Assembly (NCBI RefSeq): GCF_014203735.1 | Contig: NZ_JACHJQ010000011.1 | Coordinates: 1 to 64,000 of the forward strand | Length of the DNA stretch: 64,000 nt | Direction: 5' to 3' | DNA from: Actinophytocola algeriensis | Lineage (GTDB): Bacteria; Actinomycetota; Actinomycetes; Mycobacteriales; Pseudonocardiaceae | Shown: piece after piece, positions 1 to 18,318 of the stretch | Layout: each line of letters begins with the position of its first letter | Position numbering within the stretch: the first letter of the stretch is position 1 | The notes under the pieces: model-generated | Told to the model about the DNA's origin: nothing | What the model saw: only the letters and a program-made list of their open reading frames with translations | Database searches by the model: none | Position numbers and translations under genes: made by a program

Positions 1-60
1 AGTGTGCCGGATAACCCACTCCCACCACTGATTAGGCGCGTTCAGGACATCGCCGACGCT

Positions 61-139
61 GTGAAAGGCGCGTTGAGGACGGTGAGCGCCCTGAACGCGC
101 CTTTCACGGCATGGCCAACGCCGTGAAAGCGCCTTTCAC
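61..139. repeat. palindromic repeat, GTGAAAGGCGC family
   Basis: GTGAAAGGCGCGTT (61-74) pairs perfectly with AACGCGCCTTTCAC (94-107), a 14-bp stem around a 19-nt loop. A smaller palindrome GTGAAAG-cgc-CTTTCAC follows at 123-139. The same family recurs at 49860-49912 between two convergent genes. Terminator or REP-like role is inference. Confidence 0.8.
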
Positions 140-411
140 AGCACAACGGACACCGTGAAGGCGCGCAGGCGCGAAGGGGGCGCGAGCCCCACACCACACG
201 CAGGCAGACCGACCCATGCCAAAGAACCGAAGATGCCATCCCGCAAGGCCATCCCGGAGACCTGCCCCTCCGGCGAGGAGCCACCGGAGGCAAACCCCGT
301 CCGGCGAGGACAAACCACGAACCCACCCCGGCCAACCTAAGTGGACGCAGCCCTAGCGGCCACCAACGTTGCCGATGCCCTGAAAGACGCTTCGGCACGT
401 AACCCGATGTC

Positions 412-501
412 ATGAAGGAGCCCTTCATCACGTTGAACGCAACGAAGGGGTCCTTCATCGCACCGAGCGCAACGAAGGAGCCCTTCACCACGGTGAGCAC
501 C
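412..501. repeat. 30-bp tandem repeat, AAGGAGCCCTTCAT family
   Basis: Three consecutive 30-bp units start at 412, 442 and 472. Each begins with a small palindrome of the form AACGAAGGGGTCCTTCAT, followed by a variable spacer. The same 30-bp family recurs at 35930-36001. Confidence 0.8.
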
Positions 502-624
502 GGCGGGCAACGTCCGCGCACTGACACGTACTTCGCCCTGCACAGGGCCCATACCCGAACGAGTGAACTATTCCGGCGTGGTGGACCGCTGGGCCATTCG
601 GCGTAAGCTGTTCATATGTTCGAT

Positions 625-1740
625 TCAGTCAGCGCTCTTTCCTCGGCCCCGCAACGCTTCCCTTACCCCGAAACGAAAACGCGCCAACGCCGACGCGTGC
701 CGTCCGGCGGTGTACCGCGAGTCGGGCAGGATCAACGCCCGCAGGTAGGCGGCCCTGTCCCGGAACCCGGGCAACACGGGCAACGTGGCGATCGCCTGTG
801 CGGCAAAGGTTTTGGTGGCCTGCGTGTGGAGCCCGAGCCAGTGCTCCTCGCGCCGGGTCGGCGCATAAGACGCCGCCCAGCCCTGCAACGGGCTGGTGGT
901 GGGCAACCCGAGCAACCGGGTCGCGTCGGCCACAGCGGCCGCGACAACGGCTTGCACACCCCAGGCCTGGGCCCGGTCCAGCACGTCCGAGGAGTGCGGC
1001 AACAGCTGAGCGACATCCCGCAACGACCCCAGCCGCAGCGGCCAGTCACCCAGCGCGGCGTGGTAACACGCGTGCAGGAACCGGTTGGTGGCCGACAACG
1101 CGACGAGGGTGCGGCCCCCGACGGTGAACTCCTCACCGGCGTCCCACAACTCGTCGATGTTGACCCGCACTCCCCACGGTCCCAGCACGAACGTCCGGTG
1201 CAGGTCGATCTCGAACCCGTTGCCCCGCAACGTGGTTCCCTTGTCGAACCGCTCGTCGAACCCGGGTCGGGGCTCGGCGAGGATGCGCGTGAACCCGGCT
1301 GCGGAGAGCACCTCCACCGCACGGCCGACGTCTGTGGGCCGGAACAACAGGTCGAGGTCGATGAAGGACCGCAGAGCAGGCTCGGGATAGTCGAGATGCG
1401 CGTAGGAGCTGCCCTTCAACACCCGGCACTCGACCTCACCAAGGAGGTCGTGCAACGCCACGAGGTGCTGCTCCAACGACAACACCCGAAGCAGCACAGC
1501 GCGATGCGCACCCCGGGCCTGCTGTCGTTGCCCGTCGGTCACCGGCAGCACCCCGGCGTCCACCGCGGTACGCAACTGCCCGAGCACCCGATGAGCCTTG
1601 GCCGCCGCAAGGAGCGCTACCCATGACGCATCGGACAGTGGCGCTACGGGAAACGCCCGGGTGACGTCGGGCAGGCCGTGCCCGGCGACAGCGAGCAGGG
1701 CGGCCAGGTAGTTGTCCTCACCGCACAGTCGACGTGCCAC
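625..1740 (-). CDS. nucleotidyltransferase family protein (NTP_transf_5-like)
   Basis: 371 aa. The motif LKGSS near residue 108, followed about 20 residues later by SFIDLDLLF (the D-x-D pair near 128/130), is typical of the uncharacterised nucleotidyltransferases often found in polysaccharide clusters (family knowledge). The substrate is unknown. The frame is open further upstream, but that part is only antisense to the preceding gene. I chose GTG at 1740 because GGGAGAG lies about 6 nt upstream and it leaves a 23-nt overlap with the upstream glycosyltransferase stop, suggesting translational coupling. It is the last gene of the polysaccharide operon. Confidence 0.75.
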   Translation of the reverse strand: MARRLCGEDNYLAALLAVAGHGLPDVTRAFPVAPLSDASWVALLAAAKAHRVLGQLRTAVDAGVLPVTDGQRQQARGAHRAVLLRVLSLEQHLVALHDLLGEVECRVLKGSSYAHLDYPEPALRSFIDLDLLFRPTDVGRAVEVLSAAGFTRILAEPRPGFDERFDKGTTLRGNGFEIDLHRTFVLGPWGVRVNIDELWDAGEEFTVGGRTLVALSATNRFLHACYHAALGDWPLRLGSLRDVAQLLPHSSDVLDRAQAWGVQAVVAAAVADATRLLGLPTTSPLQGWAASYAPTRREEHWLGLHTQATKTFAAQAIATLPVLPGFRDRAAYLRALILPDSRYTAGRHASALARFRFGVREALRGRGKSAD

Positions 1741-2929
1741 GGCGGCTCTCCCGGACAACCCGTTCGTACTGCGCGACAAGGTTCGCCAACCCCACCGAGG
1801 GCGTGAACCCGTGCTCGTACCGAGCCCGAGCAGCACGTCCGAGCGACGACGGCGCCCGCACGATCTGCCCGAGCGCGGATGCGAGCGAAGCGGCGTCACC
1901 GGGAGTGTGGGTAAGCCCGGTGACCCCGTCGTCCACCAGCTCGGCAAGCGAACTGTGCCCGGCCACCACGGAAGGAACCCCGGCAGCCATGGCCTCCACC
2001 ACGACAAGCCCGAACGTCTCCAGCCACCGGGACGGCACCACCACCGCAATGGAACGAGCGATCAATGCACGACTGGAAGCCTTGTCCTGCAACCCGGCAA
2101 AGGTCACGTCCGCACGCGCCCGAGCCCACGCGGCCACCTCGTCGGCCAGGGGTCCGGCCCCCGCGATCACGAGCGGCACCCCCAGCCCACCGGCCCGCGA
2201 GACCCGTTCCCAGGCCGCCATGAGCAGCCGGACCCCTTTCTCCTCGGTAAGCCGGCCGAGATAAAGGAGATGCTCACCGGTCCCAGCCCGGCGAACGTCA
2301 GTGTCCTCGACGAAGTTGTACTTGACGGTCAACAGTTCGGCAGGCATCCCGTTGGCGACAAGCGTCCGCCGCTGCGCGTCGGAGATGCACAGGAACCGCG
2401 AGACCCCCGACCACCACCGCCGCTGATTGACAAGGAGGTTCACCGCCAGCGGCACGGTGGCAACGGTCGATCCGCGGTAGCACCCGTGCCGCAACGCCGG
2501 CAGAGGCAGCTTCCCCACGCACGCGGTGCAGGTCGCCCCGTCCCGGTACAACGTCCCGGAAGGACAGACCTGCGTGTAGTTGTGCAGGGTCGCCACGACG
2601 GGCACGCCGGCATCGCGGCAGGCGTCCAGAACCGAAGCCGAAAGGAGAGGAAAGGTGTTGTGAACGTGCACGACGTCCGGCCGCTCGGTCCGCAACCGCT
2701 CGGCCAGCGCGGATCGGGCACGCGGGTTCCATGGCACACCAAGCGGCACGAGTGCCTTGCGTGGCAACGACATCCCGGCGATGTCGTCACTGCGGCGCTC
2801 GAACCGGTCCACGTCGTGCCCGGCCGCCCGCAACAACGCGACCTCCTGGTCGACGACGTTGTCCTCCCCGCTGGGCTGCTCAGTGCGGTAGCGGTTGTGC
2901 ACGACGAGCACGCGCAAGAGATCGCTCAC
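1718..2929 (-). CDS. glycosyltransferase family 4 protein
   Basis: 403 aa, GT-B fold retaining glycosyltransferase, presumably transferring a sugar from a nucleotide donor to a lipid-linked glycan on the cytoplasmic face. The N-terminal acceptor half starts VLVVHNRY and has DVVHVHNTFP. A CPSGTLYRDG...CTACVG segment near residue 120 is a Cys pair seen in some GT4 enzymes of this type. The donor half shows LYLGRLTEEKG and SRWLETFGLVVVEAMAAG (E-x7-E). The GTG start has AAGGAG just upstream and overlaps the stop of the polymerase gene by 4 nt (GTGA). Acceptor and sugar cannot be read from sequence. Confidence 0.88.
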   Translation of the reverse strand: MSDLLRVLVVHNRYRTEQPSGEDNVVDQEVALLRAAGHDVDRFERRSDDIAGMSLPRKALVPLGVPWNPRARSALAERLRTERPDVVHVHNTFPLLSASVLDACRDAGVPVVATLHNYTQVCPSGTLYRDGATCTACVGKLPLPALRHGCYRGSTVATVPLAVNLLVNQRRWWSGVSRFLCISDAQRRTLVANGMPAELLTVKYNFVEDTDVRRAGTGEHLLYLGRLTEEKGVRLLMAAWERVSRAGGLGVPLVIAGAGPLADEVAAWARARADVTFAGLQDKASSRALIARSIAVVVPSRWLETFGLVVVEAMAAGVPSVVAGHSSLAELVDDGVTGLTHTPGDAASLASALGQIVRAPSSLGRAARARYEHGFTPSVGLANLVAQYERVVRESRRGTSTVR

Positions 2930-4113
2930 GTGGTCTCCTTCGTCCTCGTCAGCAGCGCCGCCGCGAGCGCCAGGTTCAGCAGGTACGGCGAAGCGTCGCC
3001 GAGCCCGGCCTCCGTGTAGGACGCGATGACGCAGTAGAAGATCAAGAACAACGCGATGGCCCTCGGCAAGGACGGCGGCCGCAGGCAGGCCACAGCCAGC
3101 AAAGTCACCAGGAAGGCAGCCACGATGACAAGCCCGAGATACCCCTGCTCCTGATAGACGGCGAGCCAGCTGGAGTCGATGGGCAACCCGTCGAACGACT
3201 TGTTGGTCAGCCCGACCCCGAGGAGCTGCTCGTCAAGCGAACGAGGCGCTGACAACAGCGCGTCCCACACCTTCTCGCGACCGGTGAGTGAACCCAGGTC
3301 GTCCTGACCGCGACGGAACCACGTCTGCACGGCAGGCCCGACGACCACCGCACTGACCCCGGTGATCAGCACGGCACGCCCGAACACCTTCCTGGCGCGC
3401 GACGACGTCGACGCGAGCGCCAGCAACGCGACCACGAGCCCACCGACCAACCCGAGCAACGCCGTCCTGGTGTGGCTCATCAACAGCAACGCGATCCCCG
3501 GCACAGCGAGCCACAACAGGCTCGACCGGGTGGTCTTGTGGCCCAACCAGAGGAGGATCACGAGTCCGGTCATGGTGGCCGAGTACAGACCGATCTGCGG
3601 CGGCGTCAGCGGCCAGACGGCGCCCACGATCCGGCCCCCGTACACGTCCGGCCGCGCCATGCCGGGCGCGACCACCAAGCCGAGCGCCACGGTGAACAAC
3701 ACGGCGGCGAACGCCCGGACGTGGTGGCGCAGCAGTGAGAGCCAGTCGTCCCACCAGCGGCTGACCAGCCACAGCGTGCCGACGAACATGGCGAACCGGA
3801 AGCAGCGGAACAACGCGCCGTACCCGGACTCGAGCCGGGCGCTCGACGCGATGCTGACCGCCAGCAGCAACGTGAGCAGCAGCAGGTACGCGCTGGGCCG
3901 CAGCTGAACACGAGGGTTCAGCAGCAGCGCCAGCACGAACGCGCCGACGACGGCCCCCATCGTGACCATCTGCGCCACCGGCCGCGGGATGGGGATGATC
4001 GTGTCCGCACCCTGGGAGCCCAGGGTGTTGATCACGAGCAGCGCCCACACCGCGCCGAGCAGACGTGGAGACGTCCGCTCGGGCAGGAAGGTCTGCGCGG
4101 GGGCCAGGTTCAC
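2926..4113 (-). CDS. O-antigen ligase/Wzy-like polymerase membrane protein
   Basis: About 395 aa with roughly ten hydrophobic helices and a longer polar loop near residues 255-300, the usual layout of Wzy polymerases and WaaL ligases. These join glycan repeat units on the outer face of the membrane (family knowledge). SHTRTALLGLVGG near mid-protein resembles the conserved SxSRTA region of the family. Two starts are possible: GTG at 4113 (4-nt GTGA overlap with the methyltransferase, chosen) or GTG at 4137. Polymerase versus ligase cannot be decided; the two Wzz-like genes in the same operon favour polymerase. Confidence 0.75.
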   Translation of the reverse strand: MNLAPAQTFLPERTSPRLLGAVWALLVINTLGSQGADTIIPIPRPVAQMVTMGAVVGAFVLALLLNPRVQLRPSAYLLLLTLLLAVSIASSARLESGYGALFRCFRFAMFVGTLWLVSRWWDDWLSLLRHHVRAFAAVLFTVALGLVVAPGMARPDVYGGRIVGAVWPLTPPQIGLYSATMTGLVILLWLGHKTTRSSLLWLAVPGIALLLMSHTRTALLGLVGGLVVALLALASTSSRARKVFGRAVLITGVSAVVVGPAVQTWFRRGQDDLGSLTGREKVWDALLSAPRSLDEQLLGVGLTNKSFDGLPIDSSWLAVYQEQGYLGLVIVAAFLVTLLAVACLRPPSLPRAIALFLIFYCVIASYTEAGLGDASPYLLNLALAAALLTRTKETT

Positions 4114-4967
4114 GGCCGTGCCTGCAGGGTGACCCACAGGTGCCAGCCGAGGCGGTCACCGAACGGGAGGTGGTGCACCGGCAGCGGCGGTGCGTGCATG
4201 TACCGCTGGAAGGAGTCCACGATCTCGAAGGAGGAGAAGTCACGTGCCACGTCGGAGAGCGAGTACACGCGAGCGAACGGGTTCCGCGGCCCGTCGGTGT
4301 TGCGGTGCGTGAACGCGTCCAGCGACAGGTAGTTCCGCAGCCCGACCGCCGACGCGTTGTCGAGGTGCTGCCGGAGCATGCCGTCACCGCCGACGAACCC
4401 CCGGACGGGGTATGCGGCCGCCAGCACCGCGCGGCGGACGAACCGGATGCTGACCTGGAAGTTCAGCGACCGCCGCGCGTACAGCATCGCGACGAGCGTG
4501 CCGCCCGGCTTGAGCACGCGGTGGATCTCGGCCTGCGCCGTCGCGATGTCGGGGATGTGGTGCAGCACGCCGTGACTGAACACGTGGTCGAAGCTGTTGT
4601 CCGGGTACGGGATGGCGAGCGCGGAACCCTGCTTGAGGTCGTCGTGCGGCAGGTCGCGCAGCGCGAGCCGGGCGCCGACCCTGGCCACCGACTCGGCGGT
4701 CAGGTCCAGCCCGGACCAGCGCGCGCCGCGGCGGATCAGCTGCTCGGACTCCGCACCCTGGCCGAGGCCGATCTCCAGGACCTTCTTGTCCCGCCAGTCG
4801 AAGCGGTCGAGGCAGGCCGGGATGTGACCTTCCTGGTCGTAGCGCCAGCGGTCGTAGGCGGCGAAGAACCGCTCGTAGTCGTCCGCGAACTCCTGCCGCA
4901 GCCCGCCGACGATGTGGTCGCCGCACGGGTGCGCGTTCCAGAAGTCCTGTACCTGGGTCTCGTTCAT
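4110..4967 (-). CDS. class I SAM-dependent methyltransferase
   Basis: 285 aa. Motif I is VLEIGLGQG near residue 65; the following acidic motif is in SGLDLTAES, and DNSFDHVFSHGVLHHIPD is the typical post-I/II region of Methyltransf_11 enzymes. The substrate is probably a sugar or glycan end in this operon (inference). ATG has GGGAG about 5 nt upstream, and the gene starts 9 nt after the beta-helix gene stop. The C-terminal 100 residues are less conserved and may hold acceptor specificity. Confidence 0.85.
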   Translation of the reverse strand: MNETQVQDFWNAHPCGDHIVGGLRQEFADDYERFFAAYDRWRYDQEGHIPACLDRFDWRDKKVLEIGLGQGAESEQLIRRGARWSGLDLTAESVARVGARLALRDLPHDDLKQGSALAIPYPDNSFDHVFSHGVLHHIPDIATAQAEIHRVLKPGGTLVAMLYARRSLNFQVSIRFVRRAVLAAAYPVRGFVGGDGMLRQHLDNASAVGLRNYLSLDAFTHRNTDGPRNPFARVYSLSDVARDFSSFEIVDSFQRYMHAPPLPVHHLPFGDRLGWHLWVTLQARP

Positions 4968-4976
4968 GCTGCTCCC

Positions 4977-6482
4977 TCAGCCGCCCGACTGGACGAACGT
5001 GCTGTTCTTGTCCTGCGAGTAGGGCGCCGACTGCCACTGCCCCGGGTGGATGACGCGGCCGGTGTCCTTCGCCATGAAGGTCCACGGGCCCGTGTAGTGG
5101 TTGTCGTGCCACGAGTTGTGCTGCCCGAACGTGATCGCCTGCTGCACGGTGTCCGCCCGGTAGGGCGACCAGTCCGGGTAGGTGCCGTAGTTGGAGATGA
5201 TCGCCATCCGCGCGCACAGGGCGTTGCAGCCGATCTTGCTGGGATCCACGGAGAACCGGTTGCCGTGGATGTCCACCCGCTGCGTCTTCCAGCGGCAGTC
5301 GTCGTACAGCGGGTCCTTCGAGATCGCGGGCGGCTTGCACCTGTCGATGTCCCGCACCAGCCGGGTGCAGCCGCCGGAGGTGTTCGCGGCGCTGTTGCAG
5401 AACCGGTCGGCGTTCTCCCACAGGGTGACGCCGGACCAGTTGTCCACCAGCACGTTGTCGTAGATGTCTATCTTGTCGGTGCGGGCGGGCACCCGCTTGT
5501 CGCCGCCGGCCTCGGACAGGTAGATCGCCGCGGAGGGGAAGCTGTCGCCGCTGTTGGCGAACTTGCGACCCTCGACGATGTTGTTGCGGCGGATCGTGTT
5601 GTCCCGGATCACCGCGTTGTAGCTGATCTCGTAGAAGATCGCGGGCCCGTCGTTGTCCTCGATGACGTTCTGCTCGATGAGGAAGTCGTTGTTGTTCGTG
5701 TCCGCCCACAGCCCGGCGCCGCGGTTGTCGTGCACCCAGTTGCCGCGGATGTCGGCGCCGTCCACCGCCCAGAACTTGACGCCGCCGGTGCAGCCGCAGC
5801 CCTCGAGTTTCGACTCCCAGTCGTCGGTGTTGTTGCCGGTGATCTCGTTGCCCTCGACCACGAGGTCGGTCAGCTCGCCGTCCTTGTAGGCGTTGATGCC
5901 GTACTGCCCGTTGTCCCGCAGGCAGTTCCCACGCACCACCTGCCGCGCGCCTGCCATGAGCGCGGCGCCGCCGTTCTTCTCGATCGTGTTGTCCTCGATG
6001 ACCCAGCCGTCACCGGAGTCGTGGTTGACCACACCCTCGTTGGGCGGCGGGACGAACCCGCGGATCGTGAGGCCACGGATCGTGACGTCGCTCGCGTGGA
6101 ACACGAACCCATACTTGTTCACGCGCCTGCCGTCGAGCACCGCGCCGGGTGCGCCGAGGTAGGTGTTGCCGTCCTTCGGTTCGACCGAGCCGTACTCGTC
6201 GGCGGCGAGCGTGTGGGTGCCCGGTGCCAGCCAGAACGTGGAGCCCGGCGGGTTCGCGTCGGTCTTGGCGCTCAGGTCGCCCGCGACACCGGCGTCCACG
6301 GTCACCGCACCGTCCGGCGCCGCGGCCGGCCCGGGTTTCGTGTTCCCGCACACGGCCGCGATCCGCCCGGACGGCTCCGTCGACCGGTCGTCCGGCTGGG
6401 GCGCCGCGGTGCCCGTGCACGACATGAGCATCGGCAGCAGCGCGCACAGCAGTGCCCTGCGGGTCCACTGTGGAGTGCGCAC
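4977..6482 (-). CDS. right-handed parallel beta-helix lipoprotein
   Basis: 501 aa. GTG at 6482 has GGAGG 7 nt upstream. A short basic n-region, a hydrophobic stretch and LMSC near residue 22 form a lipobox, so export and lipid anchoring outside the membrane are likely. Residues about 100-420 carry repeated turns such as IRGLTIRGF, VIEDNTIEKNG, VVEGNEITGNN, IRGNWVHDN, IEQNVIEDN and IRDNTIRRNN. This Asn-ladder pattern is typical of parallel beta-helix proteins (pectate lyase, alginate epimerase or inverting-hydrolase folds). Together with the adjacent heparinase-type gene it suggests polysaccharide modification or cleavage. Catalytic residues could not be assigned. Confidence 0.85.
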   Translation of the reverse strand: MRTPQWTRRALLCALLPMLMSCTGTAAPQPDDRSTEPSGRIAAVCGNTKPGPAAAPDGAVTVDAGVAGDLSAKTDANPPGSTFWLAPGTHTLAADEYGSVEPKDGNTYLGAPGAVLDGRRVNKYGFVFHASDVTIRGLTIRGFVPPPNEGVVNHDSGDGWVIEDNTIEKNGGAALMAGARQVVRGNCLRDNGQYGINAYKDGELTDLVVEGNEITGNNTDDWESKLEGCGCTGGVKFWAVDGADIRGNWVHDNRGAGLWADTNNNDFLIEQNVIEDNDGPAIFYEISYNAVIRDNTIRRNNIVEGRKFANSGDSFPSAAIYLSEAGGDKRVPARTDKIDIYDNVLVDNWSGVTLWENADRFCNSAANTSGGCTRLVRDIDRCKPPAISKDPLYDDCRWKTQRVDIHGNRFSVDPSKIGCNALCARMAIISNYGTYPDWSPYRADTVQQAITFGQHNSWHDNHYTGPWTFMAKDTGRVIHPGQWQSAPYSQDKNSTFVQSGG

Positions 6483-6499
6483 GGGAGAACCTCCGAAGG

Positions 6500-8476
6500 T
6501 CAACAGGGGAAGCGGAGCAGGGTCACGAGCGGGGCGGACACACCGCCACCGGCACGGCCGGTGCCGATGAGCGTGGTGGCGGGTTGACGCTGGCCGAAAC
6601 TCTCGGAGTACCAGCCGAGCGGCGGTTCCTCCTGGCCGTGGTGGACGGCCCACGCGAGGTCCCGCGGCAACTCGAGTACAGCGGTCCGGTCGTCCCACGA
6701 CAGCAGCGCGGTGTCGCCGTCCAGCACAGCCGTCACCCTCGGCCCCAGGTGGAACGCGAGACGGCAGTCGTGCGCTATCGGCGAGCGGACCTCGTCGTGG
6801 ATCTCGAGCTCGCCGATCCTGCGGTCGAGCCGCACGGTCCTGCGGTGCTCGGCCGGTTCGCGGCCACGGGTGTACCCGTCGTGCTCGGCGGTCCACGTCG
6901 CGACACCGCCCCGGCCCGGGTCGGAGGTGAGCACGGTGGTGCGGGCGTGCCGGGTCCACATGAACGGTCCACCGGACTGCGACTGGTTCCGCCCACTCAC
7001 CTCGAGCGTGTTGTGCGCGAGCGTGGACCGGAAGTAGGCACGCCACTCGGGCTGCCCGTGGTAGCAGTACGTGCCGGGGTCGGCGAGGATCTCGACGCCG
7101 TCGTGCCGCACCTCGACGGACAGTGCGTCGGCGTGCGCGTGCGCGGCGATGGACAGGAACCCGTGCGGGCCACCGTCGCAACGGCACCAGATCTCGGGCC
7201 GGGTGTCGTCGTTGGTGCGCAGGATCGTCATCCCGGCGTCGGCGAGGTGGTCCGGCTTGCTGCTCGGGCGGACCGCGTCGTTGCGCGCACCGTTGGTGAG
7301 CGCGGCGACGAGCGGCGTGCGCACGTCGTCGACGGGCACGACCGGCCACCAGCCCTGCCTGCCGAACAGCGCGTCGCCGGTGTGCAGGAGGCTGGCCCAC
7401 CGGTGCGCGTCCGCGCCGTCGACGACGAGTCCGTACCCGTCGTCGGCGTCGCCCTGGCGGGGCGGGTTGAGCCGGACGTCGACGATCGCGGCGAGCGTGT
7501 CGCACATGCGCATCAGCACGAGCCACGTCGTGTCCGGCACCCGGACCCCGGCGGCGTCGGCCTCGATCACCGCGGCGAGCCCCAGTTCGAGCACGAGCCC
7601 GTGGTACTCGGTGGCGAGCTCCCGGTTGAGGCCGGACGCGAACGTGTTCCGGTGCAGGTGCTCGTCGAACTGCCGAAGCGCCGCGGACCGCCAGGAGGGA
7701 GACTCCGGAAACCAGTCGAACGCGCAGGCCGCGACGAGCTGGCCCGCGGTCTCGGCGATGACGTGGTTGTTGGCGGACGACCCGTGACTGCCGAGCGCGG
7801 CGAGCCACCGCTGGTGGTGCCAGATCTGGGTCAGGGCATCCGCGTTGTCCTCGAACAACGCGGCCGCTCCGGACCAGCGGTCGAGCAGCCTGCGCACCCA
7901 CACCCAGGAGATGAGGCGAATCCCCAGCTCGATGCCGCTCACCCAGTGCACCCCGCGCAGGGGCGGGTTGTCGGCCCACCACGACCGCAGGTGCTCGGCC
8001 ACGCGGTCCGCGTACTGCTCCTCACCGGTGAGGGCGTAGGCGGCGGCGAGCACCGTGAGGTGCTGGTGCCGGGACGGTTCCCACAGCTGCTTGATGTCCC
8101 CGACGGCGAGTTCGTCGCGGTAGGGGATGTCGAAGGCGTACCGGTCGGTGGGCGCACGCCTGCCGGTCTTGGGGTCCCACGACCAGTCGGGCGCGACCAT
8201 GTCCTCGCGGGCGATCCCGAAGTACGAGGCACGCCCGGCCATCAGCTCGTCGGCGGCGGCAACGAGCTGCGCCTTGGCGGTCGGGGTGACCGCGGCCAGC
8301 GCCTGATCCGGCAGTACGGGCACGAACCGACGGTTGGGCAGCCAGACCGCGTTCATCGCCGCGGCGTCGTCGAGGACCCGCCGCCACCGGTGGACCCGGG
8401 CGGCGACCACGGCACGCGCGGCGACTTCACGTGGCCCCATGCGGGACAGGCGGCGGAGATACCAGGTGGGTCTCAT
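6500..8476 (-). CDS. heparinase II/III family protein
   Basis: 658 aa. An N-terminal all-helical (alpha/alpha toroid) region is followed from about residue 400 by the Hepar_II_III beta-rich domain. The latter contains AAHAHADALSVEVRHDG and ADPGTYCYHG, the family signature with candidate catalytic His and Tyr. Such enzymes cleave uronic-acid polysaccharides by beta-elimination, but many cluster-encoded members have unknown substrates. No signal peptide is evident at the basic N-terminus (MRPTWYLRRLSRMG), so cytoplasmic or non-classical location is possible. Its start overlaps the oxidoreductase stop (ATGA). Gene pairs of this enzyme with the bi-domain oxidoreductase occur in other exopolysaccharide loci (family knowledge). 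Confidence 0.85.
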   Translation of the reverse strand: MRPTWYLRRLSRMGPREVAARAVVAARVHRWRRVLDDAAAMNAVWLPNRRFVPVLPDQALAAVTPTAKAQLVAAADELMAGRASYFGIAREDMVAPDWSWDPKTGRRAPTDRYAFDIPYRDELAVGDIKQLWEPSRHQHLTVLAAAYALTGEEQYADRVAEHLRSWWADNPPLRGVHWVSGIELGIRLISWVWVRRLLDRWSGAAALFEDNADALTQIWHHQRWLAALGSHGSSANNHVIAETAGQLVAACAFDWFPESPSWRSAALRQFDEHLHRNTFASGLNRELATEYHGLVLELGLAAVIEADAAGVRVPDTTWLVLMRMCDTLAAIVDVRLNPPRQGDADDGYGLVVDGADAHRWASLLHTGDALFGRQGWWPVVPVDDVRTPLVAALTNGARNDAVRPSSKPDHLADAGMTILRTNDDTRPEIWCRCDGGPHGFLSIAAHAHADALSVEVRHDGVEILADPGTYCYHGQPEWRAYFRSTLAHNTLEVSGRNQSQSGGPFMWTRHARTTVLTSDPGRGGVATWTAEHDGYTRGREPAEHRRTVRLDRRIGELEIHDEVRSPIAHDCRLAFHLGPRVTAVLDGDTALLSWDDRTAVLELPRDLAWAVHHGQEEPPLGWYSESFGQRQPATTLIGTGRAGGGVSAPLVTLLRFPC

Positions 8477-10893: not shown

Positions 10894-10899
10894 TTTCCT

Positions 10900-12795
10900 T
10901 TACTCAGCCGAGAGAGCGGCGCGGTACCAGTGTTCGAGCGTCAGCACGTGCCAGAGGTGTTTCGACCGGTCCTGCCTGCCGGACGCGTCCTCGTCAACCA
11001 AAAGCCGCAGGGCGTCGCGACGGAGGAAACCGTTGCGCACCAGCAGGCCGTCCTCGATGACCTCCCGCACCAGCGGCGCCAGGTCCCGGCTCATCCACGC
11101 GCGCAGCGGCGCGGAGAACAACCCCTTCGGGCGGTACACGATCTCGCTCGGCAGGAGCTGCTCGGCGGCCTTCTTCAGCGCCACCTTCCCCTGCCCGCGC
11201 ACGATCTTGCGGTTGCCGGGGACCGCGAACGCCGCCTTCACCACCTCGACGTCCACGAACGGCACCCGCACCTCCGTCGACGCGGCCATGCTCGACCGGT
11301 CCGTGTACGCGAGGTTCAGACCCGGCAGGAACATCCGCGAATCGGCGAGGCACATGCGGTTCACGAAGTCGGACAGGGTGTTGTCGTGGTAGGTGTCCGC
11401 GTGCTCGGTCAGCACGTCGTCGACCGCGCCGGACAGGTCCGGGCTCACCAGCGCGGCCAGCTCGTCCCGGTCGTACATGGTGTAGCTGCGGCGGAACGCC
11501 GTCTCCTCCGGCAGGTCCGCGAACGACAGGAACCGCTTCGCGAACCGCACCGAGCGGTAGCCGCGCCGGGACGACGCCACCGGCAGCCGGTCCACCAAGG
11601 AGTGCACGGGGCGCCGCACGACGCCGGGGATCTGCTGGTAACCGAGCGCCAGCTTGTTCGCCAGGTGCTTGCGGTAGCCCGCGAACAGCTCGTCGGCGCC
11701 CATCCCCGACAGCATCACCTTCACGCCGGCCTCGCGGGCGGCGGTGCAGATGAGGAACGTGTTGATCGCCGCCGGGTCGCCGATCGGCTCGTCCAGGTGG
11801 TAGGTCATCTTCGGCAGCAGGTCCAGGACGTTCGGCGCGATCTCGATCTCGTTCAGGTCCACCCCGAACTTCGCGGCCACGATCCGGGCGTACTTCAGGT
11901 CGTCCGGCATCGCCTCGAACTTCGCGTCCTCGGGGCGGAAACCGATGGTGTACGCGGAGATCCCCGGCTGGTGGCGGGCCGCGAGCGCGGTCAGGTAGCT
12001 CGAGTCGAGGCCACCGGACAGGAAGGTCGCCACCGGCACGTCCGACAGCAGGTGCGCCTTCGTCGACTCCTCGACCACCGCCGCCAGGTCCACCTCGGAC
12101 ACGTGCTGGGCCTCGTCGGCCACCTGCCGCAGCGACCAGTACGTGCCGGTCTCGGACGAGCCGTCCGGGCGGACACGCAACCACGAACCGGGTGGCAGCT
12201 TCGACGCCTCCCGGTACGCGCACCGGCTGTCCGGCACCCAGTAGTACAGCAGCGACGCGACCAGCGCCGTGTCGTCCACGGTCAGGTCGCCCAGCTCGGT
12301 CGCGAGCGCCTTCAGCTCCGACGCGAACACCACGCCCGCGCCGCGGCGCACGTAGAACAGCGGCTTGATGCCCAGCTGGTCGCGGACCAGCGTCATCTCC
12401 CCGGTCCGCTCGTCGAACACCGAGAACGCGAACATCCCGCGCAGCCGGGGCAGGCAGTCCACCCCCCAGCGCCGCCACGCCCGCAGCAGCACCTCCGTGT
12501 CCGACGTGCCGCGGAACCGGTCACCCAGCGACTCCAGCTCCCGGCGGAGGGCAGGCGCGTTGTACAGCTCGCCGTTGTAGGTCAGGGCGAGGCCCTCGGC
12601 CACCATCGGCTGCGCGCCCGTCTCGGTCAGGTCGATGATCGACAGGCGGCGATGTCCCAGGTGGACCTCACCGTCGCCCGCGCGCCCCGACCAGCGCCCC
12701 GACCCGTCCGGGCCGCGGTGGGCCAACGTCTTCGTCAGCCGGTCCGTCAGCGGTCCGCCGTCGGGCCACAGGTAACTCCCCGCGATGCCACACAT
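10900..12795 (-). CDS. asnB: asparagine synthase (glutamine-hydrolysing)
   Basis: 631 aa. MCGIAGS places the N-terminal nucleophile Cys2 of the class II glutaminase domain (residues 2-210), with TYNGELYN and RGMFAFSVFD. The synthetase domain has the PP-loop SGGLDSS near residue 262 and MLSGMGADELFAGY. In polysaccharide clusters such enzymes often amidate uronic acids or sugar-linked carboxylates instead of supplying free asparagine (family knowledge; here inference from context and the two nucleotide-sugar dehydrogenases). A strong GAGGGGG lies upstream of ATG, 12 nt after the Wzz-like gene. Biosynthetic asparagine synthase remains possible. Confidence 0.9.
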   Translation of the reverse strand: MCGIAGSYLWPDGGPLTDRLTKTLAHRGPDGSGRWSGRAGDGEVHLGHRRLSIIDLTETGAQPMVAEGLALTYNGELYNAPALRRELESLGDRFRGTSDTEVLLRAWRRWGVDCLPRLRGMFAFSVFDERTGEMTLVRDQLGIKPLFYVRRGAGVVFASELKALATELGDLTVDDTALVASLLYYWVPDSRCAYREASKLPPGSWLRVRPDGSSETGTYWSLRQVADEAQHVSEVDLAAVVEESTKAHLLSDVPVATFLSGGLDSSYLTALAARHQPGISAYTIGFRPEDAKFEAMPDDLKYARIVAAKFGVDLNEIEIAPNVLDLLPKMTYHLDEPIGDPAAINTFLICTAAREAGVKVMLSGMGADELFAGYRKHLANKLALGYQQIPGVVRRPVHSLVDRLPVASSRRGYRSVRFAKRFLSFADLPEETAFRRSYTMYDRDELAALVSPDLSGAVDDVLTEHADTYHDNTLSDFVNRMCLADSRMFLPGLNLAYTDRSSMAASTEVRVPFVDVEVVKAAFAVPGNRKIVRGQGKVALKKAAEQLLPSEIVYRPKGLFSAPLRAWMSRDLAPLVREVIEDGLLVRNGFLRRDALRLLVDEDASGRQDRSKHLWHVLTLEHWYRAALSAE

Positions 12796-12807
12796 GCGTC
12801 CGCCCCC

Positions 12808-14352
12808 TCAGCCCTGTGTCCTGCGCTGGGACAACTCGTCGCTGTCCCGCCGCACCGGTGCGAACTTCTTCGTCGGCAGGTCGTGCCCCGGCGGCTGCAC
12901 CGGCGCCAGCCGCTTCGTCGGCAGGTCGGCGCCGTTCGTGCCGTTGGTGCCGTTGGTGCCGTTGGTGCCGTTGGTGGTCTTCTCCGCGTGCTTCGCCCGT
13001 CCGCGCAGCGCGGTGTGCAGGCCGTCCCACAGCGTCCCGTCGGTCCGGTCCCGCGGGTCCGGGTCGACGAGCACGACGCCGACGACCGGGATGCCCAGGT
13101 CGGCGAGCTGCCGGGCGACCGTGTGCAGCCACGCCGTGTGCGCGTACCCGACGCGCACCACCAGCACCGCCTCCGCACCGAGGTGCGGCAGGTCCGTCCA
13201 CGACGCACCGGGAGCGACCGACCCGACGCCGAGCCGCGCTTCGCCGTCGTCCAGTGCGGCGTCGACCGCGGCCGCCAGCGCGGCCGCGACCTTCGGCGCA
13301 CCCAGCTCCAGCACCGACACCGGCCCGGAACCGTTCCGCACCAACCGGACCAGCGTCTCGGCGACTCCGGCGTGCTCGTCGCCGGCCGCCTTGTTCGGCA
13401 GCAGACGCCGCTTGCGGCCCGGGAGCTGTGCGATCACCGACGCACCCAGGTTCGCCGCGATGTCGCGGCGCAGGACCGGCTTGTCCCGCACCACGCCGGT
13501 CACCGCGGCCAGCGCGACACCCACCACCAGGCCGAACGCCAGCCCGATGCCGGCGTTGGTGGCACCGGTGATCTTCAGCGATGTCCGCACCGGGCGTGGC
13601 GCGTCCACGATCTGCGTGCCGGCCGCCACCCGCGGCGCACCCAGCCCGGCCTCCTGCGCCTGCTGCGTGAGCTGGCTGATCTGGTCGGTCAGCTCCGCAC
13701 GCCGCGCGTACAGCGAGTCCAGGGTCGCGGCGTTCGACGGGGGCGGCGCCGCGCTCTCCTCGTTGTTCTGGTCGTTGTCGTTTTCGTCGTTGTTCTCCGC
13801 GTTGACGGCCGCGGCCTCCGCACCCGAGATCTGCCCGTTGACCTCGTTCAGCTCCGCCTGCACCTGCGTGCGCTGGTCGGTCAGCGCCTTTGCCTCCGCC
13901 GCCGCGGCCGACTGGATGCGGCCCACGTGGTCGGCGATGAACGCCTCCGCGAGCGCCTTCGCCCGCCGGGCCGCCTCCGCGCCGGTCGGCGCCTCGACCG
14001 TCACCTCGAGCACGTTGTTGGTGAGCCCGACGACCGTGATCGTCTTCAGGAACTCCTCCGGTCGCTCGGCCACCGTCAGCCGTTCCAGCGCGTCCGCGGC
14101 GATCCTGGTCGTGCTCATCAGCGCCACGTCCGTGCGGATCAGGCTGCCGCCGTCGGACGGGCCGTCCTGCTCGTGCACCACGAGGATCCGGGTCACCGCG
14201 GTCGGGGTCGGCGGCATCAGCACCGTCAGCAACCCGCCTGCGAGGAACCCGAGCAGCGCGAAGCTCAGCCACAGGCGGCGCCCTCGGCGGATCGCCGTCC
14301 ACAGCCGGGTGAAGTCCAGCAGGTGCTGGGGGCTCTGCGAGGTGGTGGTCAC
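12808..14352 (-). CDS. Wzz-like polysaccharide co-polymerase with degenerate kinase-like C-terminus
   Basis: 514 aa. A membrane helix near residues 25-45 and a second near 270-295 (GIGLAFGLVVGVALAAVTGVV) flank a mostly helical extracytoplasmic region with long coiled-coil potential and an Asn/Glu/Asp-rich loop near 180-200. This is the Wzz/BY-kinase membrane domain layout. The C-terminal cytoplasmic part resembles a BY-kinase fold (VLVVRVGYAHTA, LADLGIPVVGVVLVD), but no Walker A GxxxxGK(S/T) is present. The tail has five Thr-Asn-Gly units and two DLPTK motifs. GTG overlaps the preceding stop (GTGA). Likely role: control of glycan chain length or export. Confidence 0.8.
   Translation of the reverse strand: MTTTSQSPQHLLDFTRLWTAIRRGRRLWLSFALLGFLAGGLLTVLMPPTPTAVTRILVVHEQDGPSDGGSLIRTDVALMSTTRIAADALERLTVAERPEEFLKTITVVGLTNNVLEVTVEAPTGAEAARRAKALAEAFIADHVGRIQSAAAAEAKALTDQRTQVQAELNEVNGQISGAEAAAVNAENNDENDNDQNNEESAAPPPSNAATLDSLYARRAELTDQISQLTQQAQEAGLGAPRVAAGTQIVDAPRPVRTSLKITGATNAGIGLAFGLVVGVALAAVTGVVRDKPVLRRDIAANLGASVIAQLPGRKRRLLPNKAAGDEHAGVAETLVRLVRNGSGPVSVLELGAPKVAAALAAAVDAALDDGEARLGVGSVAPGASWTDLPHLGAEAVLVVRVGYAHTAWLHTVARQLADLGIPVVGVVLVDPDPRDRTDGTLWDGLHTALRGRAKHAEKTTNGTNGTNGTNGTNGADLPTKRLAPVQPPGHDLPTKKFAPVRRDSDELSQRRTQG
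12931..12975 (-). repeat. 9-bp coding minisatellite (Thr-Asn-Gly)
   Basis: Five consecutive 9-bp units (GCCGTTSGT on the plus strand) encode TNG repeats in the tail of the second Wzz-like protein. The in-frame period means copy-number changes would alter tail length without a frameshift. Confidence 0.85.
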
Positions 14353-15713
14353 GGTGCACCTGCCAGCGCGGGTTCGGCGGGGCGATCGGGAACCTGTTCG
14401 AGCGGGCGGGCCCGGCGGGTGACCACCGCGCCGAGCACCTCGTGCCCGGCGTCGCGGCACGCCTCGGCGATGCCGACGAGCTGCCAGCCGGTCCGCGTGC
14501 CCGTGGTGACGACCACCAGTACGCCAGGCACCGCCTCGTCCGGCACCACCGGGCGGTCCGCGTCCACCTCGACGACCTGCAACGCCAGCCTGCTCTCGGC
14601 CGCGACGGCACCCAGCCGGTCCGCGGCGCGGCGCGCCGCGGGGTCGTCCTTCGCGACCACCACCAGCACCCGGCCCGGGCCGGGGGGCAGGTGCTCGCGC
14701 AGCCGCGACAGCGCGCGGCGGTAGCGGATGTCCAGTCCGGTCTCGTCCGCGGCCGACGGCAGCTCCGGCAGGTGCCACGGCCGGTCGTCCACGACCAGCC
14801 CGGCCACCTTCTGCCACCACGACTTCGGCGCGGGAGCGGCGGCCGCCTCCGGCACGTCGGGCACGTCGACGCCACCCATCACGGCCGTGCCCAGCGCGGC
14901 CGTGATCTGCTCGTCGTCCCGCAGCCGCTTGTCGGCGCGGGCCGCGAACAGGTGCCCGAACACGCCGAGCACCAGGAACACCACCGCGCCACCCGCGACG
15001 AAGTGCGTCATCGTCGGCGTCGCGGGGCCGAGCGGGCGCTCCGCCGGGCCCATCACCACGATCTTCGACGAGCTCGACACCGTGTCCAGCTCGTCGAGCT
15101 TCGCCACCGCCTGCGACAGCGCGGTCCGCAGCGACTCCAGCTCCGTGCGCACGCCGACGCTGTCGATCGTCTGGCCCTGACCCGCGGAGTTGTGCAGGTC
15201 GGAGATCTTCTGGTTCGTTTCGATGATCTGCTGGCGCAGCGTCTCCTGCTGCTCCTGCGACACCTGCGCCGACGCGTCCGCCGTGTTCGCCATCAGCTGC
15301 GTCGAGAACGTCACGTACTCCTGCGCGACCCGGTCCGCGAGCTGCTGCGCCTGCTCCGGGGTGTCCGCCACCCCGGTGATCTCGATGATGTTGCCGTCCG
15401 CCACGGTCGCGGTCACGTCGTCGGCGAGGTCCGCTCCCGACCTGCCCCACCGCAACGCGGCGGCGGTGCGGTCCAGCACGACCGTGCTGTGCGCCACCTG
15501 GGCCTCGGTCGTCAGCTCGTCCGGGTCCCGGGGGCCCTGGAGCAGCACGCTCGCCGACGTCTCGTAGCCGGGCGAGAGCACCAGCGACGCACCCGCCCCC
15601 ACCAGCGCACCCAACACGGCGATCACTATGAGTAATCGCCACCTCTGGCGCAGTACTCGCCAGATGATGGCGAGCCGCGCTGTGTCAGCGGCGTCGGAGA
15701 CGTCATGGATCAT
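14349..15713 (-). CDS. Wzz-like polysaccharide co-polymerase
   Basis: 454 aa. N-terminal Wzz domain: helix LLIVIAVLGALVGAGASLVL near residue 30, then SPGYETSASVLLQ. A Gln/Glu-rich helical segment (residues 110-220) precedes the second membrane helix near 238-258 with the PxxP-like GPATPTM just before it. The C-terminal domain begins like a BY-kinase (GRVLVVVAKDDPAARRAADR), but the P-loop Gly/Lys/Ser are replaced. It may be a pseudokinase partner of its neighbour, or the active tyrosine kinase may be encoded elsewhere. GAAAGGGGG lies upstream of ATG. It is the first gene after a 108-nt gap. Confidence 0.82.
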   Translation of the reverse strand: MIHDVSDAADTARLAIIWRVLRQRWRLLIVIAVLGALVGAGASLVLSPGYETSASVLLQGPRDPDELTTEAQVAHSTVVLDRTAAALRWGRSGADLADDVTATVADGNIIEITGVADTPEQAQQLADRVAQEYVTFSTQLMANTADASAQVSQEQQETLRQQIIETNQKISDLHNSAGQGQTIDSVGVRTELESLRTALSQAVAKLDELDTVSSSSKIVVMGPAERPLGPATPTMTHFVAGGAVVFLVLGVFGHLFAARADKRLRDDEQITAALGTAVMGGVDVPDVPEAAAAPAPKSWWQKVAGLVVDDRPWHLPELPSAADETGLDIRYRRALSRLREHLPPGPGRVLVVVAKDDPAARRAADRLGAVAAESRLALQVVEVDADRPVVPDEAVPGVLVVVTTGTRTGWQLVGIAEACRDAGHEVLGAVVTRRARPLEQVPDRPAEPALAGAP

Positions 15714-15796
15714 CGCGTCGGGCCCCCTTTCGAGGAACTACGGCACCTGAGCGGGGCCGGCGCCTCACGAGTCCCGTCGCGGCGGACCCGGTTTGA

Positions 15797-15825
15797 GTTA
15801 CACCCCGACGGTTACTCTTGGTCAA
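15797..15825 (-). promoter_or_regulatory. possible internal promoter of the polysaccharide operon
   Basis: On the minus strand TTGACC (15820-15825), a 17-nt spacer and TGTAAC (15797-15802) resemble a housekeeping sigma promoter. It sits in the only sizeable gap of the operon, upstream of the Wzz-like pair. Seen by eye only. Confidence 0.4.
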
Positions 15826-17009
15826 GATGTTGCGGTCGCGTACGCCGCGAGCAGTGCTTTCTGTGAGTTGCTCCACGCGAGCGGGCCCTCGACGCGCTCC
15901 TTGCCGAGCTTGCCCATCCGCATCCGCTCCTCGGGGTCGTCGAGGAGCCGCGCCGTGAGCCGCGCGAACTCCCGCTCGTCGTTGGCAGGCGCGTAGACGG
16001 CCGCGTCCCCCGCCGACACCCGCGCCTCCCGCAGCTCGAACGACACCATCGGCCGGGACATGGCCATGTACTCCATGACCTTGTTCATCGTCGACACGTT
16101 GTTCAGGGGGTTGTGCGGGTCCGGCGACAGGCACACGTCCGCGGTCGACAGGTACCGCACCAGGTCCTCGTCCGGGATGCGGCCGGTGAACTCGACCACG
16201 TCGTCGAGTCCGAGTTTTCCCGCCAGCGCCACCATCTCGTCGAACGTGTCGCCCGCGCCGACGAACACGGCGTGCCAGTCGTCGCGTTCCTCCCGCAGCA
16301 GAGCCAGCGACCGCAGCGCGTAGTCCACGCCGTCCTGCGGGCCCATCACACCCAGGTAGCACAGCAGGTGCGGCTTGCCCTTCTTCAGCTCCGGCTCCGC
16401 CTCGACCTGCTGGAACCGCTCGATCACCGGCGCGCTGCGGACCACGAACACCTTCTCCGGGTCCATGTTCCCGCGCGTGATCGCCGCCTCGCGGTAGCTC
16501 TCGTTGGTCGAGATCACCACGTCCGCGGCCTTGTACGTGGCCCGCTCCAGGCGGCACACCGCGCGGTACAGCGCGTCCTCGCCCCGGCCCGCGAACCGCG
16601 ACAGGTACAGCTCCGGGCACAGGTCGTGCTGGTCGAAGACGAACTTCGTGCCCTGGCGCTTCAGCACCTTCGCCACCAGGTACAGCAGGTCCGGCGGGTT
16701 GCACGCGTGGACCACGTCGATCCTGCCCTGCTTCGCGATCTTCCTGGCCAGGCGCAGCGTGTGCCACAGCGCGGCGCCGTACTCCTTGACGTACCCGCGC
16801 GGGCCGCCGGTCGCCGCCACCAGCGGGTAGCGGTGGATCTTCACCCCGTCCAGCTCGACGTACGGCTCCCGGTCCCGTTTCGTCCCCTGTGGACAGATGA
16901 CGTGCACGTCCCAGCCCGCGTCCCGCAACGTCTGCGACTCCTGCCAGACGCGGCGGTCGAACGGCACCGAGAGGTTCTCGACGAGGATGAGTGCTCGCTT
17001 ACCAGGCAA
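15822..17009 (-). CDS. glycosyltransferase family 4 protein
   Basis: 395 aa GT-B enzyme. N-terminal LILVENLSVPFDRRVWQESQ is typical of the family found in actinobacterial and alphaproteobacterial exopolysaccharide clusters. The donor half has LCYLGVMGPQDGVDYAL, FVGAGD and NVSTMNKVMEYMAMSRPMV. Only a TTG (17009) provides a start in this frame before conserved sequence; it overlaps the upstream dehydrogenase stop by 11 nt. It probably adds an early sugar to the carrier-linked glycan; specificity unknown. Confidence 0.85.
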   Translation of the reverse strand: MPGKRALILVENLSVPFDRRVWQESQTLRDAGWDVHVICPQGTKRDREPYVELDGVKIHRYPLVAATGGPRGYVKEYGAALWHTLRLARKIAKQGRIDVVHACNPPDLLYLVAKVLKRQGTKFVFDQHDLCPELYLSRFAGRGEDALYRAVCRLERATYKAADVVISTNESYREAAITRGNMDPEKVFVVRSAPVIERFQQVEAEPELKKGKPHLLCYLGVMGPQDGVDYALRSLALLREERDDWHAVFVGAGDTFDEMVALAGKLGLDDVVEFTGRIPDEDLVRYLSTADVCLSPDPHNPLNNVSTMNKVMEYMAMSRPMVSFELREARVSAGDAAVYAPANDEREFARLTARLLDDPEERMRMGKLGKERVEGPLAWSNSQKALLAAYATATS

Positions 17010-18318
17010 GGCCCACGTACCCCTTGTCGGCCCGGCGCGCCTCGGCGTCGGGGAGGCGGACGAGATCGATCAGCGTGCGGTGGTCGTCACCAGAGGGCAG
17101 CGCGGCCAGCACGGTCGGGTCGGTCGTCGCGACCAGGTACACCTCGGCGTGCGCGAGGACCTCGTCGACGTCGGCCGCCAGCAGCTGGCCGAGGTGCGGC
17201 AGGCGCTGCTCGATGTACTCGCGGTTCGCGCCGAGCAGCCGCGACATGCTCACGCATCCGTCGTAGATCCTCAGGTCGTAACCCTTGCCCAGCAGGCGCT
17301 CCGCCAGCTCCACCATCGGGCTCTCGCGCAGGTCGTCGGTGCCCGGCTTGAACGACAGGCCGAACAGGCCGACCTTGCGCTTGCCGGTGCGCGCGACCAG
17401 CTCGAACGACCGCTTCAGGTGCTCCTCGTTGGACGGCAGCACGTGCGACAGGATCGGCACCGACACGTCCACGCGGTGCGCGGCGTGCACCAGGCCGCGC
17501 AGGTCCTTCGGCAGGCACGACCCGCCGAACGCGAACCCCGGCTTCAGGTACGCGGGGCTGATGTTGAGCTTGCGGTCGGCGACGAACACGTCCATCACCG
17601 CGTGCGAGTCCAGGCCCAGCGCCGCGCAGATCGAGCCCAGCTCGTTCGCGAAGCCGATCTTGAGCGCGTGGAAGGAGTTGTCCGCGTACTTGGTGATCTC
17701 GGCGACCGGGATCGGCACCCGGAACACGGCGCCGGGCAGGCCCTCGTACAGGGCCGCGACCACGTCACCGCTGTCGGCGTCCAGCTCGCCGATCACGGTC
17801 TTCGGCGGGTCGAAGAAGTCGCGGACGCTCGAGCCCTCCCGCAGGAACTCCGGGTTCACCGCCACGCCGAAGTCGACGCCCGCGGTCCTGCCCGACGCCT
17901 TCTCCAGGATCGGGACCAGCAGGTTCAGGCAGGTGCCCGGCAGCATCGTGCTGCGGAACACGACCGTGTGACGGGTGTCGCGCTCGGCTATCGCCTCACC
18001 GATCTGCTCGGCGACCCGCTCCAGGTACGTCGTGGACAGGCTGCCGTTCTGCGCGGACGGCGTGCCGACGCAGACCAGCGACACGTCACTGTTCGCGACC
18101 GCGTCGGCGACGTCGGTGGTCGCGCGGAGCAGCCCGGTCGCGACCACCTCGGCGGTCAGCTCACCGATCTTCTCCTCGACCACGGGCGCGTGCCCGCCCA
18201 TGATCAGGTCGACCTTGGTGGGGTTGACGTCGACGCCGACGACGTCGTTGCCGCGGGAGGCGAGGCACGCGGCCGACACCGAGCCGACGTAGCCGAGGCC
18301 GAAGACGCTGACTCTCAT
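16999..18318 (-). CDS. nucleotide-sugar 6-dehydrogenase, GDP-mannose dehydrogenase (AlgD)-like
   Basis: 439 aa. FGLGYVGSVSAACLASRGNDV is the NAD-binding Rossmann start. NPEFLREGSSVRDFFDPPKTVIGE, EITKYADNSFHALKIGFANE and the catalytic-Cys motif FGGSCLPKD follow. The pattern APVVEEKIGEL and absence of a long C-terminal insertion resemble AlgD more than standard UDP-glucose dehydrogenase. It oxidises a nucleotide hexose to the uronate with two NAD+ (family knowledge). ATG at 18318 is chosen over upstream frame extension because the Rossmann motif starts at once. It heads the operon and faces a second dehydrogenase gene. Confidence 0.85.
   Translation of the reverse strand: MRVSVFGLGYVGSVSAACLASRGNDVVGVDVNPTKVDLIMGGHAPVVEEKIGELTAEVVATGLLRATTDVADAVANSDVSLVCVGTPSAQNGSLSTTYLERVAEQIGEAIAERDTRHTVVFRSTMLPGTCLNLLVPILEKASGRTAGVDFGVAVNPEFLREGSSVRDFFDPPKTVIGELDADSGDVVAALYEGLPGAVFRVPIPVAEITKYADNSFHALKIGFANELGSICAALGLDSHAVMDVFVADRKLNISPAYLKPGFAFGGSCLPKDLRGLVHAAHRVDVSVPILSHVLPSNEEHLKRSFELVARTGKRKVGLFGLSFKPGTDDLRESPMVELAERLLGKGYDLRIYDGCVSMSRLLGANREYIEQRLPHLGQLLAADVDEVLAHAEVYLVATTDPTVLAALPSGDDHRTLIDLVRLPDAEARRADKGYVGLAW

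Follow-up and report, generated by a model that had tools for sequence, protein, structure and literature searches.

A twelve-gene operon of Actinophytocola algeriensis as the probable half of an ebosin (ste)-type exopolysaccharide cluster

The DNA analysed here comprises the first 64,000 nucleotides (C11:1–64000) of contig C11 (NZ_JACHJQ010000011.1) of Actinophytocola algeriensis and is referred to as the window; its base 1 is the end of the contig in an assembly of 9.73 Mb and 23 contigs. Twelve genes, all with open reading frames, follow each other on the minus strand between 18318 and 625 and received Pfam support in a profile search. We compare them with the ste cluster for the exopolysaccharide ebosin of Streptomyces sp. 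139, giving the ste position and the amino acid identity to the corresponding gene of G568, a Streptomyces genome described below. The operon starts with an AlgD-type nucleotide-sugar dehydrogenase (16999–18318, ste6 position, 80%) and the GT4 glycosyltransferase GT4a (15822–17009, ste7 position, 76%), followed by two Wzz-like chain-length proteins with PF02706 matches, Wzz1 (14349–15713, ste8, 48–49% to the G568 gene with exact ste8 primers) and Wzz2 (12808–14352, ste9 position, 47%). The next four genes encode an AsnB-type amidotransferase with a GATase Cys2 (10900–12795, ste10 position, 79%), a bi-domain oxidoreductase of zinc-dependent alcohol dehydrogenase type and Gfo/Idh/MocA type (8473–10893, ste11 position, 79 and 67%), a heparinase II/III-fold protein (6500–8476, ste12 position, PF07940, 65%) and a right-handed beta-helix lipoprotein (4977–6482, ste13 position, PF13229, 65%), whose lipobox was recognized by eye. 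A methyltransferase outside the ste run (4110–4967) is followed by a Wzy-like polymerase (2926–4137, ste14 position, 62%), which scores 30.4 bits against PF04932 and thus lies marginally below the cut-off of 31.7, by a second GT4 glycosyltransferase, GT4b (1718–2929, ste15 position, 68%), and by a PF14907 nucleotidyltransferase (625–1740), the start codon of which was chosen in this analysis. At ten of the eleven junctions, neighbouring genes overlap or are separated by no more than 17 nt, as the first-pass annotation had described for this co-directional set; the junction between GT4a and wzz1 measures 108 nt. Scans of the operon for promoters (0 compared to 0.4 in shuffles) and terminators (8 compared to 6.8, sd 2.7) found none above shuffled sequence.

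The conservation of this gene set was assessed in related genomes, with presence and absence of genes counted by tblastn. A heparinase match was found in 61 of 249 Pseudonocardiaceae genomes at 1e-10, A. algeriensis included, and in 15 of 296 genomes of the class sample at 1e-20. Twenty of the 61 Pseudonocardiaceae genomes were fetched. The operon is kept in 18 of them, always with asnB, the bi-domain gene and the heparinase gene adjacent, so that its order is conserved beyond chance. The order dehydrogenase, GT4, wzz, wzz, asnB, bi-domain gene, heparinase was seen in 15 of these 18 operon genomes and an order with the wzz pair first in the other three; genes beyond the heparinase are more variable, for example in G106 and G041. 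The remaining two genomes keep the dehydrogenase and GT4a (67–69% identity) and have only a distant heparinase (31–36%). A scan of named genomes yielded 373 heparinase relatives, of which the best 80 were analysed as loci, some of them cut by contig ends. The bi-domain gene, the heparinase and the beta-helix gene are present in all 80 loci, asnB, wzz2 and wzy in 79, wzz1 in 78, GT4a in 77, the dehydrogenase in 76 and GT4b in 75. The heparinase gene adjoins the bi-domain gene in every locus, and asnB precedes both in 79. The GATase Cys2 of AsnB is kept in all 79 loci that cover it. Judged from gene arrangement and conservation, the twelve-gene set is confirmed as a real, conserved and presumably co-transcribed operon. 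Its earlier reading is supported in that these genes belong to one operon for a uronate-type glycan of Wzy type, which includes an amidotransferase-type AsnB and proteins with lyase/epimerase folds. The methyltransferase, previously counted with the synthesis genes, does lie in the operon but is not part of its core: it is present in only two of the 80 loci and in four of the 18 operon genomes, and is accessory to the cluster.

In a profile search, neither PF02397 (phosphoglycosyltransferase, PGT) nor PF01943 (flippase family) matched anywhere on contig C11. In the whole genome, PF02397 has two matching sites (contigs C3 and C2) and PF01943 a single one (C2); the PGT on C3 scores 217.7 bits. 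Actinophytocola oryzae DSM 45499 (G115), a member of the same genus, indicates how C3 relates to the window. Since the DNA directly beyond its operon is collinear with C3 from base 192 on, C3 most likely adjoins C11 at window base 1. The contig end itself carries short tandem units of 30–32 nt with palindromic cores (window 34–503), which may have caused the assembly break. Farther along, A. oryzae has a convergent operon of nine genes that is also found on C3 of A. algeriensis, namely aminotransferase, RmlC-like epimerase, GT2, flippase candidate, DUF4910, PIG-L, cytidylyltransferase, C-methyltransferase and PGT. Three more genes in this part of C3 encode a methyltransferase, an epimerase/dehydratase and a pyruvyl transferase. 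The flippase candidate is named from its position, and a simple rule assigns it six hydrophobic segments; it is present in 14 of the 18 operon genomes, the stretches of the remaining four, 40 kb each, ending short of it. The absence of a PGT and a flippase noted in the first-pass annotation therefore holds for C11 but not for the genome, in which C3 provides a PGT and a candidate flippase. The lack of an outer export protein, listed there as a gap, is none, because such a protein is not expected in monoderm bacteria. Taken together, the Wzx/Wzy components comprise the PGT on C3, two Wzz matches, a Wzy-like protein just below the cut-off and a positional flippase candidate. The second PGT and the sole PF01943 match of the genome lie about 4 kb apart on C2 (965000–984999) and probably belong to a separate glycan locus.

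Published studies describe a 27-ORF ste cluster for ebosin in Streptomyces sp. 139 (PMC4347597, PMC11078827, PMC8902715, PMC6895308) and ebosin as a mixed heteroglycan (PMC11078827). A polymer with the ebosin sugars and its alteration upon ste gene disruption are reported for Streptomyces sp. 139 only (PMC4347597, PMC11078827, PMC8902715), the roles of Ste5, 7, 8, 9, 15 and 22 also come from papers on this strain, and regulator, DasABC-type and dipeptidase genes are reported beside ste (PMC11078827, PMC8902715). As probes we used six published quantitative PCR primers for ste5, ste8 and ste17 (PMC8902715). The ste8 primer matched exactly in one of 392 Streptomyces genomes (G568) and with at most one mismatch in seven, of which G568, the sole exact match, was read. 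In G568 all six primers match with 0 mismatches and lie inside the genes for the PGT (ste5), Wzz1 (ste8) and the cytidylyltransferase NTPT (ste17), of which the PGT is 64% and NTPT 79–87% identical to the A. algeriensis protein. These anchors are genes 1, 4 and 13 of a single run that contains ten genes of the window and nine of C3 at 47–87% identity, and their spacing agrees with the ste numbers 5, 8 and 17. Genome size and contig number of G568 (7.3 Mb, 3 contigs) are the same as reported for Streptomyces sp. 139 (PMC6895308). When ste numbers were placed on the 21 genes that form one annotated run in Streptomyces sp. KN37, 19 of the 21 published functional classes (PMC11078827) fitted by position. 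The window thus corresponds to ste positions 6–15 in order plus one extra gene, and positions 5 and 16–24 have their counterparts on C3. By title, 46 of the 80 loci are from Streptomycetaceae (42 Streptomyces, 3 Kitasatospora, 1 Streptacidiphilus). All hits are on the same strand in each of the 46, and 43 contain every gene sought (ten of window type, six of C3 type); both halves form one run in this family. A PGT match was present in 44 loci; in 43 of these the NTPT gene contains the sites of the ste17 primer pair, with a median of 2 mismatches compared to 9 in the reverse-strand control. From these sequence comparisons, we conclude that the operon very probably constitutes one half of a Wzx/Wzy-dependent exopolysaccharide cluster of the ebosin (ste) type. 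The statement that no actinomycete product of such a module had been described can no longer be upheld, as ten genes are orthologous to and collinear with the ebosin cluster.

Several points weigh against this assignment. G568 is linked to Streptomyces sp. 139 through the primers, the genome size and the contig number. Only ste17 is decisive across the 44 PGT loci, and the identification as ste rests on G568: the ste5 and ste8 primers are near background (median of 11 mismatches compared to 13 on the reverse strand), the ste5 primers falling in the PGT gene in one locus and the ste8 primers in wzz1 in four, partly because most loci stop inside the PGT gene. The Wzz proteins are only 47–49% identical to those of G568. 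The literature assigns ste13 and ste22b to polymerisation/export, a role that suits neither a beta-helix protein nor a pyruvyl transferase. The junction of C11 and C3 is itself deduced from a relative, and C3:1–191 has no match in A. oryzae. The PGT lies inside the fetched stretch in only five of the 18 operon genomes, and several stretches that extend past the C-methyltransferase have none; it therefore has no fixed place in Pseudonocardiaceae. Finally, the flippase candidate matches nothing in Pfam and has no meaningful counterpart in the PDB.

The dehydrogenase is closest to AlgD (1mfz, 476.5 bits, compared to 221.8 for the best UDP-glucose dehydrogenase). Of two substrate-binding positions of AlgD, Tyr256 is Ala in all 76 loci covering the gene, while Arg259 is kept in 74 and replaced by Lys in two, A. 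algeriensis being of the Lys type. GDP-mannose is thus its likely substrate. Divergent from this gene and next to it, a further dehydrogenase gene (window 18518–19822) is of plain UDP-glucose type (391.6 bits compared to 182.5 for AlgD); it occurs at the same place in two of the 20 genomes fetched (G115, G094). The heparinase-fold protein matches PF07940 with 173.7 bits, and its model (moderate confidence, predicted local distance difference test (pLDDT) 63.6) resembles HepIII, glycosaminoglycan and alginate lyases and dermatan sulfate epimerase 1. Residues N237, H238, Y291, H446, H448 and D450 are kept in 80 of 80 loci; we presume that this Asn/His, Tyr and His set is catalytic. Sequence inspection revealed no N-terminal hydrophobic stretch and no export signal. 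As a cytosolic enzyme would have no natural access to a secreted polymer, we infer that it acts on the lipid-linked unit, as an intracellular epimerase or lyase. The beta-helix lipoprotein (model pLDDT 82) has its best fold matches with AlgE4 and the Vibrio polysaccharide lyase RbmB, above the GH120 structure 3vst, to which its profile match is weak (E 3.8e-4, its domain 0.084). Its residues D261 and E285 are kept in 80 of 80 loci and align with D382 and E405 of GH120, presumably the catalytic Asp and Glu. Judging by the modelled fold and the sequence, it may be a lyase, an epimerase or a glycosidase. In G085, G182 and G193, the operon is followed by one or two additional inverted copies of the beta-helix gene (L057 13588–16532, L059 13910–16800, L067 4304–5665). 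The proposal that the heparinase-fold and beta-helix proteins cut or epimerise the polymer is thus retained as far as their lyase/epimerase folds are concerned, with the presumably cytosolic heparinase-fold protein now inferred to act on the lipid-linked unit instead.

An alginate-like mannuronate polymer, for which the dehydrogenase would supply GDP-mannuronate and the heparinase-fold and beta-helix proteins would be alginate lyase and C5-epimerase, could explain why AlgD and AlgE4 are the best matches and why NCBI names the heparinase-fold orthologue an alginate lyase family protein. It is nevertheless very unlikely, given that the 21-gene run has PGT, Wzy and Wzz assembly genes and no gene annotated as alginate synthase, that Ala stands invariably at the Tyr256 position and that ebosin is reported to be a mixed heteroglycan (PMC11078827). 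A degradation locus in which both lyase-fold proteins break down external uronides is hardly conceivable: both folds do include many catabolic lyases, but the heparinase-fold protein lacks an N-terminal hydrophobic stretch, its gene stands next to the bi-domain gene among synthesis genes in all 80 loci, and the annotation of the KN37 run includes no uptake transporter. We retain the ebosin-type synthesis cluster and consider it possible, albeit unlikely, that AsnB, the bi-domain protein and the heparinase-fold protein form an intracellular tailoring unit which recurs, whole or in part, across phyla, the heparinase fold being a uronate C5-epimerase rather than a lyase and the beta-helix protein trimming the polymer outside. 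If true, the heparinase-fold protein would be a bacterial counterpart of dermatan sulfate epimerase; in the open PMC literature, we found nothing on heparinase in actinomycete exopolysaccharide clusters.

Directly past the contig break, C3 (179–6667) carries an Asn-synthase domain protein without GATase, an MsbA-like ABC transporter, an HPr-kinase-like protein, a B2 protein and a PqqD protein, a lasso-like module. Against NCBIfam cut-offs, B2 scores 54.2 compared to 33 bits and PqqD 51.8 and 48.3 compared to 80 and 70; upstream of PqqD, no convincing lasso precursor was found in eight stretches. This neighbourhood, with its B2 protein above the cut-off, PqqD protein and Asn-synthase domain protein, could suggest a chimeric operon in which AsnB and the PF14907 protein work for a lasso-peptide pathway. 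This is most improbable for AsnB, which reaches 199.8 bits with the lasso cyclase model (cut-off 525) and remains beside the bi-domain gene and the heparinase where no module gene is seen; the lasso explanation fits the PF14907 gene only. The PF14907 gene occurs in 11 of the 80 loci, all 11 with module genes, and none of the 80 loci, which are of limited length, has module genes without it. Among the 18 operon genomes ten have the gene, nine of them with module genes nearby (the exception is G113), compared to none of the eight without (exact probability 2e-4, ignoring kinship among the 18). In G568, the sole PF14907 match lies about 2.1 Mb from the cluster. The nucleotidyltransferase thus belongs with the lasso-like module rather than with the sugar pathway to which it had been assigned. 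A search of the open PMC literature found nothing on a lasso-like module with exopolysaccharide clusters; its position beside the cluster in some Pseudonocardiaceae is a separate lead.

Assuming that the ebosin-type assignment is correct, A. algeriensis would produce its polymer as follows. The membrane PGT encoded on C3 would put the first sugar on the lipid carrier, and GT4a, GT4b and the GT2 of C3 would extend the repeat unit from activated sugars, including an AlgD-type uronic acid and a sugar derived from the C3 cytidylyltransferase. AsnB, the bi-domain oxidoreductase and the heparinase-fold enzyme may tailor this unit inside the cell by amidation, a redox step and C5-epimerisation or elimination. 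The flippase candidate would then move the unit out, the Wzy-like protein would polymerise it with the two Wzz-like proteins setting the length, and the beta-helix lipoprotein may act on the polymer outside the cell. An actinomycete surface-glycan locus is hereby tied to the ebosin cluster, for which mutants exist and anti-arthritic activity of the polymer is reported (PMC4347597, PMC11078827). This link makes the tailoring genes directly testable in Streptomyces.

Among known systems, the heparinase-fold protein of the operon shares its family and putative catalytic set with the heparinase II/III-fold lyases and dermatan sulfate epimerase. A likeness to XrtA/PEP-CTERM exopolysaccharide systems is seen in AsnB and GT4a, each of which matches an XrtA-system NCBIfam model best, but both remain far below the cut-offs (448 compared to 816.9 bits and 102.9 compared to 442.05 bits), and exosortase PF09721 has 0 matches in the A. 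algeriensis genome at 1e-3. A plasmid collection contained AsnB matches in 237 records at 1e-50, heparinase matches in 13 at 1e-15 and bi-domain matches in seven at 1e-40. For all three proteins, matches of 60–80% identity come from the same three Streptomyces plasmids. One of these is linear and carries a complete 21-gene cluster (NZ_CP139046.1, 271928–313829) with a type I polyketide synthase gene beside it; the two others carry asnB, the bi-domain gene and the heparinase. Four distant plasmid records were also read. The AlgD-type dehydrogenase, GT4 and heparinase genes are adjacent in Shinella (50, 47 and 34% identity), PGT, asnB, heparinase, dehydrogenase and GT4 are consecutive in Deinococcus, and in Sphingobium and Parabacteroides the bi-domain gene adjoins a heparinase or alginate lyase family gene, the Parabacteroides lyase gene giving no match to the window heparinase-fold protein at 1e-5. 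All four clusters differ by a non-ste order and other sugar genes. The closest known system is ste itself, with ten of the twelve window genes orthologous and in identical order. Nine C3 genes were found in G568 by similarity (PGT, C-methyltransferase, cytidylyltransferase, PIG-L, DUF4910, flippase candidate, GT2, RmlC-like protein and aminotransferase), and the short-chain dehydrogenase/reductase and pyruvyl transferase of the KN37 run have C3 counterparts by family. In contrast to the unbroken run in Streptomyces, the A. algeriensis genes are on two contigs and form two convergent operons in relatives, in some of them with the lasso-like module in between. The A. algeriensis operon also has the extra methyltransferase, and its C3 PGT precedes the C-methyltransferase, whereas the PGT of ste precedes the dehydrogenase.

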